From contig WHTY01000016.1 of assembly GCA_009377475.1 (NCBI GenBank), positions 1-64,000 on the forward strand: a stretch of DNA of 64,000 nt, read 5' to 3'. Under the pieces are notes generated by a model. That model ran no database searches, was not told the origin of the DNA, and saw nothing but the letters and a program-made list of their open reading frames with translations. The position numbers were made by a program, and so were the translations under genes. This stretch comes from Actinophytocola sp. GTDB taxonomy: Bacteria > Actinomycetota > Actinomycetes > Mycobacteriales > Pseudonocardiaceae. Shown here in pieces: positions 6,283 to 61,017 of this stretch (its first letter is position 1; each line of letters opens with the position of its first letter).

Positions 6283-7083
6283 ATGAGCTTCGACGACTAC
6301 CAGCAGCTGGCGTTCTCCCGCAGGGACAACGGCGTCCTGCTCATCACGCTCGACCGGCCGGACAAGTACAACGCCGCTGACGAGCGGATGCACACCGAGC
6401 TCGCGAACGTGTGGCGCGACGTCGCCGCCGACCCCGAGACCCGCGTCGCGGTCATCACCGGCGCGGGCAAGGCGTTCTCGGCCGGTGGGGACCTGGCCAT
6501 GGTCGAGCGGATGGCGGGCGACTACGACCGCGCCTCCCACATGCTGACCGAGATGAGCGACCTCGTCTACAACATCATCAACTGCGACAAACCGATCGTG
6601 TCGGCCATCAACGGGGTCGCCGTCGGCGCGGGTACCGTCGCCGCGCTACTGGCCGATGTCGCCATCGCCGCCGAGGACGCCAAGATCGGCGACGGACACG
6701 TCAAGCTCGGCGTCGCCGCGGGCGACCACGCCGCCATCATCTGGCCACTGCTGGCAGGTATGGCCAAAGCCCGCTACTACCTACTCACCGGCGAGATGAT
6801 CACCGGCGCCGAGGCCGAGCGCATCGGCATGGTCGCCAAAGCCCTGCCCCGCGACGCGGTCCTCGACGAAGCGCTCCGCATCGCCGACAACCTCGCCACC
6901 GGCGCCCAGCAGGCAATCCGGCTCACCAAACGAACCCTGAACAATTGGCTCCGCAGCGCGGGACCCACGTTCGACCAGTCCGCCGCCTACGAGATGCTGA
7001 CCTTCCTCGGCCCCGACGTCGTTGAGGGCTGCGCCGCACTGCGAGAGAAGCGCGCACCCAAGTTCCCCTCCGCGCACTCCTGA
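6283..7083 (+). CDS. Enoyl-CoA hydratase/isomerase (crotonase) family protein
   Basis: A 266-residue crotonase-fold protein. [16 protein letters not shown] and [14 protein letters not shown] (oxyanion-hole GGDL) are clear, as is [18 protein letters not shown]. The region that in canonical enoyl-CoA hydratases carries the catalytic glutamates reads [20 protein letters not shown], with histidine and aspartate instead. That pattern belongs to a divergent subfamily, so the reaction may not be simple hydration. GGAAGGAG precedes the ATG. No clear operon partner; the neighbour is convergent. Confidence 0.8.
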
Positions 7084-7224
7084 CCGCTCGCTGACCGTGA
7101 CACGTCCCGCATCCCGTGCCCGGCGAGGCACCGGACACGGGCGGGCACTCCCGTGTGCGGGCGGGTTACTCCGCGCAGAGCGCGTAGGCGTCCGGGACCG
7201 CGACATCGATCGCGGCGGACACCG

Positions 7225-8445
7225 TCACCGCCTGATCGGACTACGCACCCGGTGGCCGACGGCGACGACAGCGCGAGCCTTGCCCGCCAGCCTCGGATAC
7301 CGCCGGGCTGCCCGTTTCGCGAGGAGCTTCGTCACTGGCAGCTGGTCGCGTGCCTCTGCCGCCTTCAGCTTGTTTCGCACCGTGTCCAGCCGGTACAGCA
7401 CCCCCGCGAGCGCGTCCATCGACGCGTCGAGCATCTCGACATCGGTCGCGCTGTCCGGGTGGCGGGGACCTGCCTGTTCCGCATCCCACGAGGGAATCAG
7501 CTCATCCAGGTCGCCGACGACGTCGTACTCAGCCTCCCGCAGCTCGTGCACGATCCCCTTGGCCCGCTGGACGACCCAGTCCCTGTCGTCGACCGGCAGC
7601 TGCAGCGGGACCAGATCGGGCCGCGCGGCGAGCACGTCGACGGCCAGGTAGTGCTTGATCATGTTGTGGTAGCTGGGCCCCTGCATCTCGTCGATGATCT
7701 CGGCGTTGAGCCGCCGCAACACGTTCGTCTCGACCAGGCCCATCGACGGGTTGCGGACCGGCACGTCGGCGGGGCACTCCTCGGGGTCGATGCCGACGGT
7801 GCGCGCGAACCGGGTCCACAATGCGTCCTTGCCGACTGCCCCACGCGGGGGCGCGGTCACGATGTGCACCCGCTCCGGCGGGATGTCGGCGGCCCAGGTG
7901 CGCAGCACATCGGGCAGGTTCTGGTACTGCCAGAAGATGTCCGCGAAGAATGGGTTCACCGAGTCGTCGATGCGCTTCAGCGAGTGCGTGTACTCCGAAA
8001 AGGTCAGCAGGCCACGGTTCTTGACGTCCTCCTGCCAGTGGGCCGGGATCTGCCGCGCCAGGTCCCTTGCGGTCATCACGATGTGCACTTCGAGACCATC
8101 GAGGTCGCGCATCGCGCGACGCACCGTGTCCGCGTCCGAGAGCGAGAACATCTCGTGCGAGATGATCGACGGTCCGTCCCATCGCCGCACGTCGGCGACG
8201 ACCTTGCCCCAACTACCCGCGATCTTCGGGCCGGCGACGCCGTAGTAGTCAAGTCCGCGCAGATCGTGTGCCGCGAGGAAATGTGCCTTGCCATTGGACT
8301 CCGGGTACAGCACGCCGAGCTCCCGCAGGGTGGCCCGCTTTCGGCTCATGACGTGTTGCAGGTAGGTGGTACCCGTCTTCGGCGCACCGATGTGCAAGTA
8401 GACCCGCCGCGAGCTCTGCGGTGTTGGCCTGGTGGGTGGTGTCAT
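7225..8445 (-). CDS. PAPS-dependent sulfotransferase family protein
   Basis: A 406-residue protein with the 5'-phosphosulfate loop HIGAPKTGTTYLQ at residues 18-30, typical of sulfotransferases that use PAPS. The 3'-phosphate-binding region fits HIVMTARDLARQIPAHW. The C-terminal 70 residues are basic and helical (KLLAKRAARRYPRLAGKAR). GGGGAG precedes the ATG. Bacterial members sulfate glycolipids, lipooligosaccharides or secondary metabolites. A methyltransferase lies nearby on the same strand, but no glycosyltransferase is present to define the acceptor. Confidence 0.82.
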   Translation of the reverse strand: MTPPTRPTPQSSRRVYLHIGAPKTGTTYLQHVMSRKRATLRELGVLYPESNGKAHFLAAHDLRGLDYYGVAGPKIAGSWGKVVADVRRWDGPSIISHEMFSLSDADTVRRAMRDLDGLEVHIVMTARDLARQIPAHWQEDVKNRGLLTFSEYTHSLKRIDDSVNPFFADIFWQYQNLPDVLRTWAADIPPERVHIVTAPPRGAVGKDALWTRFARTVGIDPEECPADVPVRNPSMGLVETNVLRRLNAEIIDEMQGPSYHNMIKHYLAVDVLAARPDLVPLQLPVDDRDWVVQRAKGIVHELREAEYDVVGDLDELIPSWDAEQAGPRHPDSATDVEMLDASMDALAGVLYRLDTVRNKLKAAEARDQLPVTKLLAKRAARRYPRLAGKARAVVAVGHRVRSPIRR

Positions 8446-8856
8446 GCGTCAGCTCCCCGTATGTCGTGTCGCTCCGATCGGCGGAGTCCGTTGTCGGCCA
8501 TCCGCGCCAGCGCGTGGTCAATTGCGTCCCGTCTTGGCGTTCTGACCTCGGGAGCGGCGGAACCGGTACGCACCCCGCCGGATGCGGGACGCCCTCCGGC
8601 TTGGCGCAAGGGAGCGGCGGCGATCCCGCTGAACGACAGCGTCGATGCGTCGCGCAGGGTCGCGCCGCGCCGTGTGGGCGGCCCCAGCGGCCGGGGTTAC
8701 TCAGCGGCGGATCCGCCGCTACCGAGGCGAGCTTCCTCGTCCATGTCGAACGAAGTGCGCTAGGTCACGAGCTGCTGATTCGGCGTCTTGATCGCTCGCA
8801 GCCCACGCCTTCCGAGGGAAGGCGGGCAGGAGGCGTCGACCAATCCGTCGCCGAAA
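8446..8856. other. Intergenic region holding a decayed copy of a duplicated segment
   Basis: No gene is supported. Sequence near 8719-8765 (ACCGAGGCGAG, then CATGTCGA) and 8830-8856 resembles 10797-10926 downstream of the paralogous gene at 10927-11406. This indicates that the duplication extended past the end of the coding region. Confidence 0.4.
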
Positions 8857-9342
8857 TCAGGCGCGAGCGCGGGGCGGCGCGCGGCCGTCGACGGTGCGAT
8901 ACGCCCGAAACCCGTAGTTGTCCTCAGTGTCCGGTGGGTCGTCGCGGACGGTCGCTACGGGAAGCAGGATGTCGGCGGCCGACGGCTCGGCAACGTCCAC
9001 CTGGTGGTCAACGACCCGACGACTTGTCGCGCGCTCCTGGTTCTGCGGCGTCCTGAACTTATGGTCGTCGGGGCCATCCGTTCGGGTCGCGCGCTTCGCA
9101 CAGCCCTGATGACTTATCCCGGATTTACCATCCACCGCGACGGAGTACGCGGACAGGGACGCAGCCGCGTCATGTGGCTGCCCGACCGGCGCGGTCGCCA
9201 ACGCCGTGGTGCCGAGTGCCCCGGGCAGCGCGCCGAACACGGCCAGCAGCATCCCCAGCGCGGCAAGCAGCGACCGCTGCCTCAGGTCACCGCGCGAAAG
9301 GACACTTCGTGCCCTCGCAGGCCCTGCGACGGGATTCCGCAA
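8857..9342 (-). CDS. Small membrane-anchored protein, paralog of the gene at 10927-11406
   Basis: A 161-residue protein with one N-terminal membrane segment (SLLAALGMLLAVFGALPGAL) and a hydrophilic remainder ending YGFRAYRTVDGRAPPR. I chose TTG at 9342 because GGGAG lies just before it and the upstream sequence (GTTGGGAG, then TTGCGGAAT) aligns with that of the paralog (GTTGGGAG, then GTGCGGAAA). A longer frame starts at 9390. The shared C-terminal YRTVDGRAPP and spacing suggest a common ancestor. Family unknown. Confidence 0.5.
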   Translation of the reverse strand: MRNPVAGPARARSVLSRGDLRQRSLLAALGMLLAVFGALPGALGTTALATAPVGQPHDAAASLSAYSVAVDGKSGISHQGCAKRATRTDGPDDHKFRTPQNQERATSRRVVDHQVDVAEPSAADILLPVATVRDDPPDTEDNYGFRAYRTVDGRAPPRARA

Positions 9343-9689
9343 GACAGGTGCTCCCAACGCTGGTGTAAGGGTGCTCCGGCTGCGCAACACCGTACCTGCC
9401 CGTGCGTGGTCGGCGGTATGCCGGTAGCGGTAGTCGGCAACGCCCGGTTACCGCCCAGCCAGGTTGGATATTCTTGTTGTGCTGAAAGGCGTTTTCGGGG
9501 TGGTACTTCGCTTCGCCGTTCCACCAAAGCAGGCTGACCTGGTGGCTCCCGCGAGACCCGTGAGCCGCGTCCACACGGCATCCGGGGCCGGTCGAGCCGT
9601 GGTGACGGCGTGACCATGCCCGTCATGGCGACATGGCCACGCCGACCGACGGCCGTGCACCCGTGTGCCGCACGGCGCATGCCTCGTCC
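9343..9689. other. Intergenic region, no gene seen
   Basis: Only overlapping shadow frames are present. The part next to 9343-9400 resembles the region upstream of the paralogous gene at 10927-11406 and is probably its counterpart promoter region. Confidence 0.4.
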
Positions 9690-49727: not shown

Positions 49728-50837
49728 TCATGCCGGGAGGTCGACCAGCCCCGCCAGGGTCGCCCGGTGCCCCTCGGCGGCGCCGAACGCGAGCTGGTCC
49801 GCCTTGGCGCGCTTCAGGTACAGGTGCGCCGGGTGCTCCCACGTCATGCCGATGCCGCCGTGCAACTGGACGCAGTCCTCCGCCGCGCGCACCGCGGCGC
49901 CCGAGCAGTACGCCTGCGCCAGCGCCACCGCCACCTGCCGGTCGGGGTCACCCTCGGCGGCGGTCGCCGCCGCGTACCGGGCCGCCGCACGGGCGGACTC
50001 CAGCTCGACCCACAGGTCGGCCAGCCGGTGCTTGATCGCCTGGAACCCGCCGACGATCCGGCCGAACTGCCGCCGCTCCTTCAGGTACGCCACCGTCGAC
50101 TCAAGGCACCACTCCGCGACGCCCACCTGCTCGGACGCCAGCAACGCCGCGCCAAGCTCCAGCGCGTCCCGCACGGCGGCGGTGCCGTCGGTCGCGTCGA
50201 TCAGCAGCGTGCACTCAGCGTCGGTGAAGTCGATGTCCGCGAGTGGCCGCGACATGTCCAGCGACACCACGGGCGTCATCTGGACCTCGCTGACGGCCAC
50301 GAGGTGCACCTCGAACCCGTCCTCGGTGGGCACCGGGACCAGCAGGACGTCGGCGTCGAGCGCGCCGGCCACGCTGGACACGCTGCCGCGCAGCAGGTCC
50401 TCCTCGGTGCGCAGCACGTCGGAGCCGAACGTCGCGGGCCCGGCGCTGAACGGCACCGCCAACGCCGCCGTCGCCGTCCCATCGACCAGCCCGCGCACCG
50501 CCTCGGTGTGCTGCGCTCGCAGTGCGATCGACGTCGCGATGACGGCGCTGGTCAGGAACGGCACCGGCGCGGCGAACCGCCCCAGTTCCTCCAGCACGAC
50601 CGCCGCCTCGCGCGCGCTCGCGCCCTGGCCGCCCATCGATTCCGGCACCAACAGCCCGGCCAACCCGAGGTCGTTCGCCAGCGTCGGCCACAGCTCGCGG
50701 CCGAGGCTGTCGTCACCGTCGTAGGCGCCGATCACCCGCTCGGCGGGGCACCGGTCGGTGAGCAGCGACCGCACGCTGTCCCGCAGCGAGTCCTCGACGT
50801 CGGTGTAGAGCAGGTTCAGGTCGCGTGTCTCGCTCAT
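49728..50837 (-). CDS. Acyl-CoA dehydrogenase, short divergent type
   Basis: Starting at MSETRDLNLLYTDVED it has 369 residues. The first half is divergent (PESMGGQGASAREAAVVLEE recognisable; the usual EPxAGSD loop is replaced by PFSAGPATFGSD). The C-terminal half is typical: YLKERRQFGRIVGGFQAIKH and DCVQLHGGIGMTWEHPAHLY. In actinobacteria such subunits often form heteromeric FadE pairs with a neighbouring full-type dehydrogenase. It overlaps the upstream gene by 4 bp (ATGA). Last gene of the operon. Confidence 0.85.
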   Translation of the reverse strand: MSETRDLNLLYTDVEDSLRDSVRSLLTDRCPAERVIGAYDGDDSLGRELWPTLANDLGLAGLLVPESMGGQGASAREAAVVLEELGRFAAPVPFLTSAVIATSIALRAQHTEAVRGLVDGTATAALAVPFSAGPATFGSDVLRTEEDLLRGSVSSVAGALDADVLLVPVPTEDGFEVHLVAVSEVQMTPVVSLDMSRPLADIDFTDAECTLLIDATDGTAAVRDALELGAALLASEQVGVAEWCLESTVAYLKERRQFGRIVGGFQAIKHRLADLWVELESARAAARYAAATAAEGDPDRQVAVALAQAYCSGAAVRAAEDCVQLHGGIGMTWEHPAHLYLKRAKADQLAFGAAEGHRATLAGLVDLPA

Positions 50838-58530: not shown

Positions 58531-58716
58531 GGGCATTCGTCCCTTCTCGTGCTTTCCGGGCTACCAACTCAACATCCGGCACGTCCAGCCCACATCAGGA
58601 CACCACCCCGACTTCCCCTGACGTCGTGTGACCCCCGCCCCGTCGACGCGTTCCGCGTTCCGCCCTGGCGCGACCGATGTCACCCACATGTCGGTTGCTT
58701 TCGCCTATCCACACGG

Positions 58717-58735
58717 TTAAGTTCGGCCTGACGAA
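58717..58735 (+). promoter_or_regulatory. Possible iron-box-like site upstream of the multicopper oxidase gene
   Basis: The 19 bp TTAAGTTCGGCCTGACGAA match the actinobacterial IdeR/DtxR consensus at about 12 positions, mainly in the left half. It lies 31 bp before the ATG. The match is weak and is offered only because the operon looks metal-related. Confidence 0.25.
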
Positions 58736-58765
58736 ATTCAATCTCCGTCGCAAGGAATTATCGCC

Positions 58766-59851
58766 ATGACCACGCCAGAGTCGCCCGAACCCGAACGTAC
58801 CGGACCATCCCGGCGGCGGTTCCTGCTCGGCGGCGCGCTCGCGGGTACCGCCGGAGCGGCGGCGCTCGGTATCGGCGGCGCGCTCTCGGCATCGGCCGAC
58901 GGCGGCAGAACACCCGGCGGCCCTGGCCACGGCGGCCACGGAAGCGCCCACGGCGGCGGCGTGCACGGTCCCATGTTCCGCGCCGGAAGCACTGTCGACC
59001 ACGAAGCCAACGGCTTCCACCCCACCGAACTGCTGCGGGACTTCGACTACGGCACGACGTCCCGCATGGCCGACGGCCGGATTTTGCGCGAATGGGACGT
59101 CTACGCCACCGACGAGGAGATCGAGATCGCGCCCGGCGCGACGTTCCCTGCGTGGACGTTCAACTCCCGGGTACCGGGACCCACGCTGCGCTGCACGGAG
59201 GGCGACCTGCTGCGGGTGCGGTTCCACAACGGCTCCGAGCACCCGCACACCATGCATTTCCACGGTATCCACCCCGCCGAGATGGACGGCATCCCCGGCG
59301 TCGGCGCGGGCGTCATCGAGCCGGGCGCTTCCACCGTGTACGAGTTCGACGCCGAACCGTTCGGGCTGCATCTGTACCACTGCCACGTCGGGCCGCTGGC
59401 CGAACACATCGCGCGCGGGATGTACGGCACGTTCATCGTCGACCCGAAACAGGGCCGCGCCGACGCCGACGAGCTGGTGATGGTCATGCACGGCTACAAC
59501 ACCACGTTCGACGGCGAAGGCAACCAGCTCTACGCCGTCAACGGCATCCCGTTCCACTACATGCACGAACCGGTCAAGGTGAGGCGCAACGAGCTGGTGC
59601 GGATCTACCTGGTCAACACGCTGGAGTTCGACCCGATCAACAGCTTCCACCTGCACGGCAACTTCTTCGAGTACTACCCCACCGGCACCCGGCTCGAGCC
59701 GACAGAGTTCACCGACACCATCGTCCAGGGGCAGGGTCAGCGTGGCATCTGCGAGGTGCGATTCAAACATCCGGGCCAGTACATGTTCCACGCGCACAAG
59801 ACCGAGTTCGCCGAGCTGGGCTGGATGGGCATGTTCGAGGTGACCGAATGA
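58766..59851 (+). CDS. Tat-exported two-domain multicopper oxidase
   Basis: A 361-residue cupredoxin protein. The twin-arginine signal is SRRRFLLGGALAGTAGAAAL, followed by a glycine/histidine-rich linker (PGHGGHGSAHGGGVHG). Copper motifs are HPHTMHFHGIHP, HLYHCHVGPLAEH, NSFHLHGNFFEY and MFHAHKTEFAELGW. It has two cupredoxin domains, like small laccases or nitrite-reductase-type oxidases, so it would work as a trimer. Its stop overlaps the start of a ZIP transporter (ATGA). AAGGAA precedes the ATG. Confidence 0.87.
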   Translation: MTTPESPEPERTGPSRRRFLLGGALAGTAGAAALGIGGALSASADGGRTPGGPGHGGHGSAHGGGVHGPMFRAGSTVDHEANGFHPTELLRDFDYGTTSRMADGRILREWDVYATDEEIEIAPGATFPAWTFNSRVPGPTLRCTEGDLLRVRFHNGSEHPHTMHFHGIHPAEMDGIPGVGAGVIEPGASTVYEFDAEPFGLHLYHCHVGPLAEHIARGMYGTFIVDPKQGRADADELVMVMHGYNTTFDGEGNQLYAVNGIPFHYMHEPVKVRRNELVRIYLVNTLEFDPINSFHLHGNFFEYYPTGTRLEPTEFTDTIVQGQGQRGICEVRFKHPGQYMFHAHKTEFAELGWMGMFEVTE

Positions 59852-61017
59852 CCACCACGTCGAACACGCTGCGGACCTGGGCACCGGCGCTCGGGGTCGT
59901 CGCACTGATCGCGCTGACGCTGACGGCACTCGCGGTGCTCGGTGGCCGCACGCTGCCCGACCGCACCGGCCCGCCGGTCGAGGAACTGGCCGTCGAGCGC
60001 ACCCACTTGACCCAGGGCGAGATCACGCTGACGGTACGCAACACCGGTGCCGACCCGGTGCGGGTAGCGCAGGTGTTCGTCAACGACGCCTACGTCGACT
60101 TCGCCGGCGGTGACGCCGCGATCGACCGGCTCGACACCGAGACGCTGCGGCTGAACTACCCGTGGCAGGCGGAACAGCCGTACCACGTCTCGATCCTGAC
60201 CGCGACCGGCGCGGTGATCGAGCACGAAATCGACGCAGCGGTGACCACACCACAGGCAGACGGCGGGTTCTTCGCGCTGATGATACTGCTGGGCACGTAT
60301 GTCGGCATCATCCCCGTGGTGCTGGGGATGCTGTTCCTGCCGACCCTCCGGCGAATCGGCACCCGTGGCGTGCGGGTGCTGCTCGCCGTCACGGTTGGCC
60401 TGCTGGCGTTCCTGGCCATCGACGCCACCCTCGAGGGCTTCGAACTCGCGGAGAAAGCGGGCGGAGCGTTCGGCGGCACGGCACTGGTTGTGCTTGGCGC
60501 GCTGCTGGCGTTCCTGGCGCTTAGTGCGCTGGACCACCGGCTCAGCAGAGGCCGCACCGAGAAGAACGGCCTCCGGCTCGCGTTGCTGATCTCCATCGGC
60601 GTCGGCCTGCACAACCTCGGCGAGGGGCTGGCCATCGGCGCCGCCTACGCGGTCGGGGAACTCGCGCTCGGCGTCACGCTTGTCGTCGGGTTCGCCATCC
60701 ACAACACCACCGAGGGCCTGGCGATCGTGTCGCCACTGACGCAGCGACGACGTCCCGGCATTGGCACGTTGCTCGGGCTCGGCGTGATCGCGGGCGCTCC
60801 CGCGATCCTCGGCGCGGTCATCGGCGGCACCGTCACCAACACCGAACTGTCAAGCTTCCTGCTCGGGATCGGCGTCGGCGCCATCGCGCAGGTGATCGTG
60901 CAGCTCGTGCCAGCCGTGCGGGACAAGGCGGGACGGCTGCTCGACCCGGCGACGGTCGGCGGTGCGACGGCGGGCCTGCTGGCGATGTACCTTACTGGGC
61001 TGCTGGTCACGGCCTGA
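59848..61017 (+). CDS. ZIP-family metal transporter with N-terminal extracytoplasmic domain
   Basis: A 389-residue protein. One membrane anchor (LGVVALIALTLTALAVLGG) is followed by an Ig-like soluble domain (ITLTVRNTGADPVRVAQVFV). The ZIP core has the metal motifs VGLHNLGEGLAIGAAYA (span 4) and FAIHNTTEGLAIV (span 5). It should import Zn, Fe or Mn into the cytoplasm. Translational coupling to the multicopper oxidase suggests oxidation and uptake of the same metal. Confidence 0.88.
   Translation: MTTTSNTLRTWAPALGVVALIALTLTALAVLGGRTLPDRTGPPVEELAVERTHLTQGEITLTVRNTGADPVRVAQVFVNDAYVDFAGGDAAIDRLDTETLRLNYPWQAEQPYHVSILTATGAVIEHEIDAAVTTPQADGGFFALMILLGTYVGIIPVVLGMLFLPTLRRIGTRGVRVLLAVTVGLLAFLAIDATLEGFELAEKAGGAFGGTALVVLGALLAFLALSALDHRLSRGRTEKNGLRLALLISIGVGLHNLGEGLAIGAAYAVGELALGVTLVVGFAIHNTTEGLAIVSPLTQRRRPGIGTLLGLGVIAGAPAILGAVIGGTVTNTELSSFLLGIGVGAIAQVIVQLVPAVRDKAGRLLDPATVGGATAGLLAMYLTGLLVTA

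Follow-up and report, generated by a model that had tools for sequence, protein, structure and literature searches.

A conserved, in part plasmid-borne multicopper oxidase–ZIP gene pair often linked to MntR-type regulators, a putative manganese or iron importer

In the 64,000 nucleotides of Actinophytocola sp. contig WHTY01000016.1 analysed here (this whole stretch is called the window below), the gene of a multicopper oxidase (MCO) runs directly into that of a ZIP-fold metal transporter, an arrangement that recurs beyond chance and is often accompanied in relatives by a DtxR-family regulator that appears to be of MntR type. We lean, with slightly better than even confidence, towards reading the pair as an MntR-repressed importer of Mn(II) (or Fe(II)) whose oxidase would condition the metal at the mouth of the transporter; this confidence covers the importer module, and the substrate of the oxidase is a guess.

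The two genes share the four bases ATGA (Table 1), and the 4-bp overlap described in an earlier note on this DNA is thus real. The genes flanking the pair both lie on the opposite strand and resemble, judged from their translations, a methyltransferase and an alpha/beta hydrolase. In the window itself, neither a regulator nor an electron carrier gene is linked to the pair. Its closest relative among the loci listed comes from Haloechinothrix halophila, with a ZIP protein 89% identical. Elsewhere in the window, ARAGORN placed a tRNA-Ala(GGC) of 91 bases at positions 50406-50496, which is long for a tRNA-Ala.

Table 1. Features of the MCO–ZIP gene pair and its upstream region, in window coordinates.
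Feature	Position	Strand	Basis or detail
-35 box TTGCTT	58695..58700	+	read from sequence; 17 bp from the -10 box
-10 box TAAGTT	58718..58723	+	read from sequence
Operator-like inverted repeat AGTTCGGCCTGACGAAAT, DtxR/MntR-like	58720..58737	+	matrix scan; overlaps the -10 box
Candidate ribosome-binding site of MCO, AAGGA	58752..58756	+	read from sequence; probable
MCO gene (P0001), two-domain multicopper oxidase with Tat motif	58766..59851	+	361 aa
MCO domain 1, Cu-oxidase_3, residues 117-229	59114..59452	+	carries the T1 site (H161, C206, H214, M219) plus one half of the trinuclear ligands
MCO domain 2, Cu-oxidase_2, residues 252-360	59519..59845	+	trinuclear ligands HLH and HAH; this domain has no Cys
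ATGA, overlap of MCO stop and ZIP start	59848..59851	+	read from sequence
ZIP gene (P0002), metal transporter of ZIP fold bearing an anchored Ig-like domain at its N-terminus	59848..61017	+	389 aa
Ig-like domain, residues 40-135, predicted outside	59965..60252	+	AlphaFold2 model and structure matches
ZIP membrane core, residues 139-388	60262..61011	+	AlphaFold2 model and structure matches
First metal motif HNLGEG (H255, N256, E259)	60610..60627	+	canonical HNxPEG with Pro replaced by Gly
Second metal motif HNTTEG (H285, N286, E289)	60700..60717	+	Pro replaced by Thr

Both oxidase domains exceed their Pfam cut-offs (Cu-oxidase_3 and Cu-oxidase_2), and all eight trinuclear histidine ligands were found (H164, H166, H205, H207, H295, H297, H342 and H344). 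The T1 ligands are confined to domain 1; domain 2 reads HAH and lacks a cysteine, and therefore has no T1 site. These His, Cys and Met residues presumably play the ligand roles given here, and we take "type C" to be the class name for such a two-domain MCO with its T1 copper in domain 1. Across 112 paired MCOs (108 distinct sequences), each of the 11 His/Cys ligands is retained in 111 or 112, the T1 axial residue is Leu in 66 and Met in 46, and a Tat motif is present in 104. Tat motif, Pfam domains and copper ligands together bear out, at the level of sequence, the Tat-exported two-domain oxidase that had been claimed. The nearest solved structure is PDB 3gdc (E 1e-131), which we take to be a protein of Arthrobacter sp. 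FB24; on plasmid 1 of this strain, an MCO gene adjoins a ZIP gene and a DtxR-family regulator. The open-licence literature searched yielded no functional paper on the 3gdc/FB24 protein and no relevant one on 7RAB.

The sole Pfam match of the second protein, to Zip, stays below threshold (21.1 bits vs a gathering cut-off of 35.1), a score that marks a detection limit and not a property of the protein. Searches against solved structures retrieved five sequences (E 3e-8 to 6e-7), one of them named BbZIP and the others "putative membrane protein". An AlphaFold2 model built from 48 sequences (pLDDT 86.8, pTM 0.77) predicts a helix at residues 7-32, a beta-sandwich at 47-128 and then the ZIP helices. 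The modelled core matches BbZIP entries (Z 16.4-19.9, rmsd 3.3-4.7 Å, 219-260 residues), and for residues 40-131 the best counterparts are soluble domains of archaellum FlaF/FlaG (VIA-align Z 11.4-11.8 and rmsd 1.8-2.0 Å in the top rows), a likeness of common fold only that gives no pointer to function. From known ZIP topology, the N-domain and the C-terminus would lie outside; the extra extracytoplasmic Ig-like domain suspected earlier is accordingly present in the model, with its membrane side deduced from that topology. H255, N256, E259, N286 and E289 are present in 30/30 and 48/48 aligned rows, and H285 in 28/30 and 45/48. The position aligned with the helix-6 Glu of BbZIP is Ala, Thr or Val in all 30 and all 48 sequences, never acidic. 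By modelled fold and residues, and not by the Pfam cut-off, we class the protein as a diverged branch of the ZIP family.

The check for conserved MCO–ZIP pairs that the earlier note had proposed shows them to be conserved. In 198 genomes of the phylum, ZIP matches with E below 1e-60 occurred at 22 places in 21 genomes, each covering at least 335 of the 389 residues, and an MCO gene lies directly upstream on the same strand at 21 of them; the sole exception starts 124 bases from a contig end. All four genomes of the genus carry the ZIP, and none of the five other genomes of the order or the 11 of the class in this sample has a match with E below 1e-60, so that the spread of the pair is patchy. 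Among the best 80 of 587 genome loci, a sample leaning to Actinomycetota, an MCO gene precedes the ZIP gene in 76. Two of the four loci without it end at contig edges (L113, L118), and the two others are real (L104, L105; Smaragdicoccus and a Nocardiaceae MAG): around positions 6500-9500 they hold the ZIP and a downstream Rieske gene, with no MCO in the locus and an amidase-like ORF upstream. The 75 pairs that could be measured overlap by 4 bp in 33 cases and by 1 bp in 26, a measure biased toward small gaps since it used the in-frame start codon closest to the MCO stop. The distance matrices of the two proteins correlate across 106 pairs with r = 0.868 (500 shuffles reached 0.181 at most), much of which arises from shared descent alone; MCO and ZIP have the same nearest neighbour in only 63 of the 106. 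Six genomes (G012, G066, G111, G165, G180 and G197) encode a related MCO lineage, 42-44% identical, without a ZIP match, and pairing is therefore tied to one MCO lineage.

The pair is also found on plasmids. We counted 150 plasmid records with a match, 140 covering 80% or more of the query and 74 predicted conjugative, many of the 150 being near copies (e.g., 37 from Pseudosulfitobacter). Fifteen of the 16 plasmid regions read hold the MCO and then the ZIP gene, and span Actinomycetota, Alphaproteobacteria, Cyanobacteriota, Deinococcota, Bacillota and Halobacteria. The remaining region, from Deinococcus sp. KNUC1210 (L049:6713-8524), has a single ORF of 603 aa in which a ZIP without the Ig-like domain is followed by an MCO. 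This MCO reads HSH in place of the HCH of domain 1 of the window MCO and has a Cys in QCH of domain 2, and is thus of another MCO type. A wider plasmid sweep for ZIP–MCO fusions returned one record with one place covering at least 80% of the query. The fusion suggests, from this single record, that the same oxidase–ZIP partnership arose a second time.

Searching the neighbourhood of the pair, we found that 44 of the 80 genome loci (best 80 of 587) have a DtxR-family gene no more than 3.5 kb away, as do 8 of 15 full-length loci among the plasmid regions read. The 45 genome-locus regulators occur in three arrangements, 19 co-directional upstream, 18 co-directional downstream and 8 on the other strand, and linkage vs its absence requires 13 changes on a tree of ZIP sequences with 84 rows. 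A regulator may be hidden in 4 of the 22 loci that show no regulator and no Rieske gene, as these 4 have under 3.5 kb before the MCO. At the position of Cys102 of IdeR, the 45 carry Glu (38) or Asp (7) and never Cys; at that of Met10 they carry Asp (36), Asn (4) or Arg (1), with 4 unaligned, and never Met. Both positions align in 52 of 65 regulators from genome, plasmid and further genome loci (a few of them near copies); 46 of these combine Asp with Asp/Glu, as in MntR, 6 differ, and none has the Met and Cys of IdeR. For these positions we adopt the meaning they have in published work on MntR and DtxR. In all 7 regulators tested, an MntR model scores best among NCBIfam models, above its curated cut-off in 2. 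Among PDB sequences, 5zr4 ("metal-dependent transcriptional regulator") is closest to the FB24 regulator, then 8pvt and SloR, after which come, with similar scores, the iron repressor IdeR (E 8e-24) and, slightly behind it, ScaR (3e-23); for this regulator, comparison with PDB sequences alone does not settle iron- vs manganese-type. The new element here is the DtxR-family linkage of the pair, with MntR-type rather than IdeR-type ligands, as read from alignment, in most readable regulators.

The Actinophytocola genome itself has one MntR-type and one IdeR-type regulator, both unlinked to the pair. It also encodes two ZnuA-like binding proteins and one over-cut-off Nramp-family match, which rules out the pair as the only manganese route of this genome. 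The Nramp-family protein (G000:C16:14466-15506, L130) has a first helix, GPGLILGASIVGSGE, that apparently lacks DPGN, which we take to be the usual Nramp motif there.

An operator-like site accompanies many of the pairs as well. In 8 Micrococcaceae loci, a conserved inverted repeat lies between the regulator and the MCO gene; with the matrix built from these 8 sites, the repeat at 58720-58737 ranks 11th in the 64 kb of the window. It is the top site of the window (20.8 vs 11.4 for the next) with a Nocardiaceae matrix, which was trained on 8 loci with Rieske-type operons and no linked regulator and was chosen by eye after the upstream regions and the result of the Micrococcaceae matrix had been viewed. 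In 59 other MCO-first loci, from which the 8 training loci were left out and in which near copies and the 8 Micrococcaceae loci of the first sighting are included, the best site of the locus lies at most 200 bp upstream in 31, with about 0.8 expected, and a site within 200 bp upstream is among the top three in 38, with 2.5 expected. Nocardiaceae are named in 9 of the 59, with rank 1 in 7; in the remaining 50, rank 1 was reached in 24. Where dtxR comes first in the operon, the best site precedes the MCO gene in 0 of 21 operons and dtxR in 7 of 19, two having been dropped from the latter count for too short an upstream sequence. No DtxR-family gene is linked to the cyanobacterial and Bacillota copies read, whose best site takes rank 4 to 38 within its locus. 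The -35 and -10 boxes recur upstream of the MCO gene in the near relatives aligned.

Around the MntR-type, IdeR, ZnuA and Nramp-like genes of the own genome, no operator site scored above 7.4. A relaxed operator pattern matched this genome 7 times, vs 2 for a reversed control pattern, and none of the 7 precedes an obvious metal gene, judged from translations only. DtxR-family operators alone do not separate Mn from Fe. Together, the linkage to MntR-type regulators and the shared operator-like site argue for the assignment to iron or manganese made in the earlier note, whose conserved oxidase–importer unit is strongly supported.

Riboswitch control was considered and rejected: 8 loci lacking a linked regulator yielded no Rfam hit at gathering scores, and 3 of 8 further loci had cobalamin riboswitches only, none directly before the pair. 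Cobalamin riboswitches lie within a few kb of cyanobacterial plasmid copies (L040:3540-3685, L045:692-842 and L037:4952-5100), and that of L040 precedes a CbtB gene.

Third genes join the pair in some clades. A Rieske gene was found within 3.5 kb in 17 of the 80 genome loci (best 80 of 587), 3 of which have both a Rieske and a DtxR-family gene. A carrier gene on the same strand lies at the 3′ end of the ZIP gene in 24 loci (16 Rieske, of which one sits 1.3 kb from the ZIP, and 8 plastocyanin-like), and a loose lipobox pattern occurs in all 24 carrier segments, some of them chance matches, as the segments extend past the start codon. On two Bacillota plasmids, a TatA gene follows the pair. Carriers are a minority feature limited to some clades; these third genes point to a putative extramembrane electron-transfer partner for the pair.

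Several systems resemble the pair. Yeast Fet3/Ftr1 likewise combines a secreted MCO with a permease, there an anchored MCO of three domains alongside an unrelated Fe3+ permease, whereas the window pairs a two-domain Tat-type MCO with a ZIP-fold permease outside the Ftr1 family. BbZIP/ZupT share the membrane fold and both HN..E metal motifs with the window ZIP, which differs in its extra anchored Ig-like domain, the replaced motif prolines and the Ala/Thr/Val at the helix-6 Glu position. Closest in layout are ammonia-oxidising archaea (N. viennensis NVIE_000600/NVIE_000590; Ca. Nitrosocaldaceae), in which a two-domain MCO1 gene beside a ZIP permease gene is proposed for copper uptake and compared with Fet3 (PMC7785015, PMC7819960); the likeness is to the published description, not to sequences, and with it the earlier impression that no such system had been described falls. 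For Pseudomonas putida GB-1, the text consulted links Mn oxidation to higher internal Mn, with no mention there of a ZIP pair (PMC3798386), and a copper survey of Haloferax mediterranei tabulates MCO genes apart from ZIP genes (PMC9240420). We found no description of an MntR-linked MCO–ZIP pair in the open-licence literature searched. These results suggest an as yet undescribed route of manganese or iron uptake in which an oxidase assists.

The archaeal model provides the rival reading to which we give most weight, although we still think it unlikely: the MCO would oxidise Cu(I) to Cu(II) and the ZIP would import Cu(II), as proposed for Nitrososphaera viennensis. MCO1 and the adjoining permease of that archaeon are reported to be up under copper limitation (log2 FC 0.81 and 1.33; PMC7785015), the T1 axial Leu reported for its MCO1 is that of 66 of the 112 MCOs here, and PCuAC, SCO or CopD genes lie near some plasmid copies; yet the linked regulators appear to be MntR-type, and the operator-like site moves with them, although a CopY-type repressor and metal-sensing repressors are present in some annotated regions. 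Ranking next, and hardly probable, is heavy-metal defence, in which the oxidase would detoxify extracellular Mn(II), Cu(I) or Fe(II) and, on resistance islands, the ZIP would stand in as an importer or act as a sensor. The many plasmid records, about half predicted conjugative, would fit this, and many plasmid copies have Cd, Zn and Cu resistance genes around them. In the regions read, genes for CadC, CDF exporters, P-type ATPases and YnfA are among the neighbours. At least one of six metal-resistance queries was matched in 25 of the 80 genome loci; however, 55, with the near relative of the window pair (L050) among them, match none within the stretch analysed, and an MntR-type repressor normally switches importers off rather than defence on.

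Iron uptake in the strict manner of Fet3/Ftr1, with a ferroxidase handing its product to the ZIP, follows in our ranking as an improbable reading. It has the same domain logic of secreted oxidase and permease in its favour, and the single-protein fusion of KNUC1210. However, divalent ions are what ZIP proteins are known to handle, and the site here is an H/N/E set of that kind, the usual divalent-metal site of ZIPs, which makes the analogy drawn in the earlier note less likely in its strict form of M3+ import. The Cys and Met of IdeR occur in 0 of the 45 genome-locus regulators. That MCO and ZIP have a common operon and no common function we regard as very improbable: adjacency alone is no proof of function, and L104 and L105 keep the ZIP alone in the locus, but pairing in 76 of 80 loci with short overlaps, its occurrence in several phyla and a fusion that involves another MCO type all speak against it.

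For the MntR-repressed importer, sequence analysis shows the conserved pair, its copper ligands and Tat motif, the predicted folds, the transport-site residues, the regulator type and the operator-like site; the metal, the direction of transport, repression and contact between MCO and ZIP are what we infer. The two-gene operon would import a divalent metal, most likely Mn(II) with Fe(II) as the alternative, and a DtxR-family regulator of MntR type would repress it under ample metal supply. Outside, the Tat-exported MCO would act beside the mouth of the permease and probably dock on the anchored Ig-like domain of the ZIP. The transport site of the ZIP seems made for divalent ions; for that reason we consider it more probable that the oxidase conditions the ions available at the mouth than that it supplies the ZIP with M3+. 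It may remove competing Fe(II) or Cu(I), or liberate ligand-bound Mn(II)/Fe(II). In several clades, the Rieske or plastocyanin-like third gene would encode a probably lipid-anchored one-electron carrier that exchanges electrons with the oxidase. Only tentatively do we go further and suppose that the secreted oxidase, with the lipid-anchored carrier of some clades, redox-gates the ZIP: oxidation of competing Fe(II)/Cu(I) at its mouth would narrow this broad divalent transporter down to a selective importer of Mn(II), which manganese starvation would switch on through MntR. That this redox-gated reading concerns a widespread, mobile class of importers is proposed just as tentatively.

If the importer reading is right, oxidase-assisted ZIP import would be a common and mobile prokaryotic route for manganese (or iron), and a re-reading would be due for many genes that currently carry the annotation multicopper oxidase, "metal transporter" or "zinc transporter ZupT". 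Removal of a competing ion by oxidation could then be a general trick of metal selectivity. The pair also offers the copper-uptake model of the ammonia-oxidising archaea a bacterial test bed, together with a regulator to test it against.
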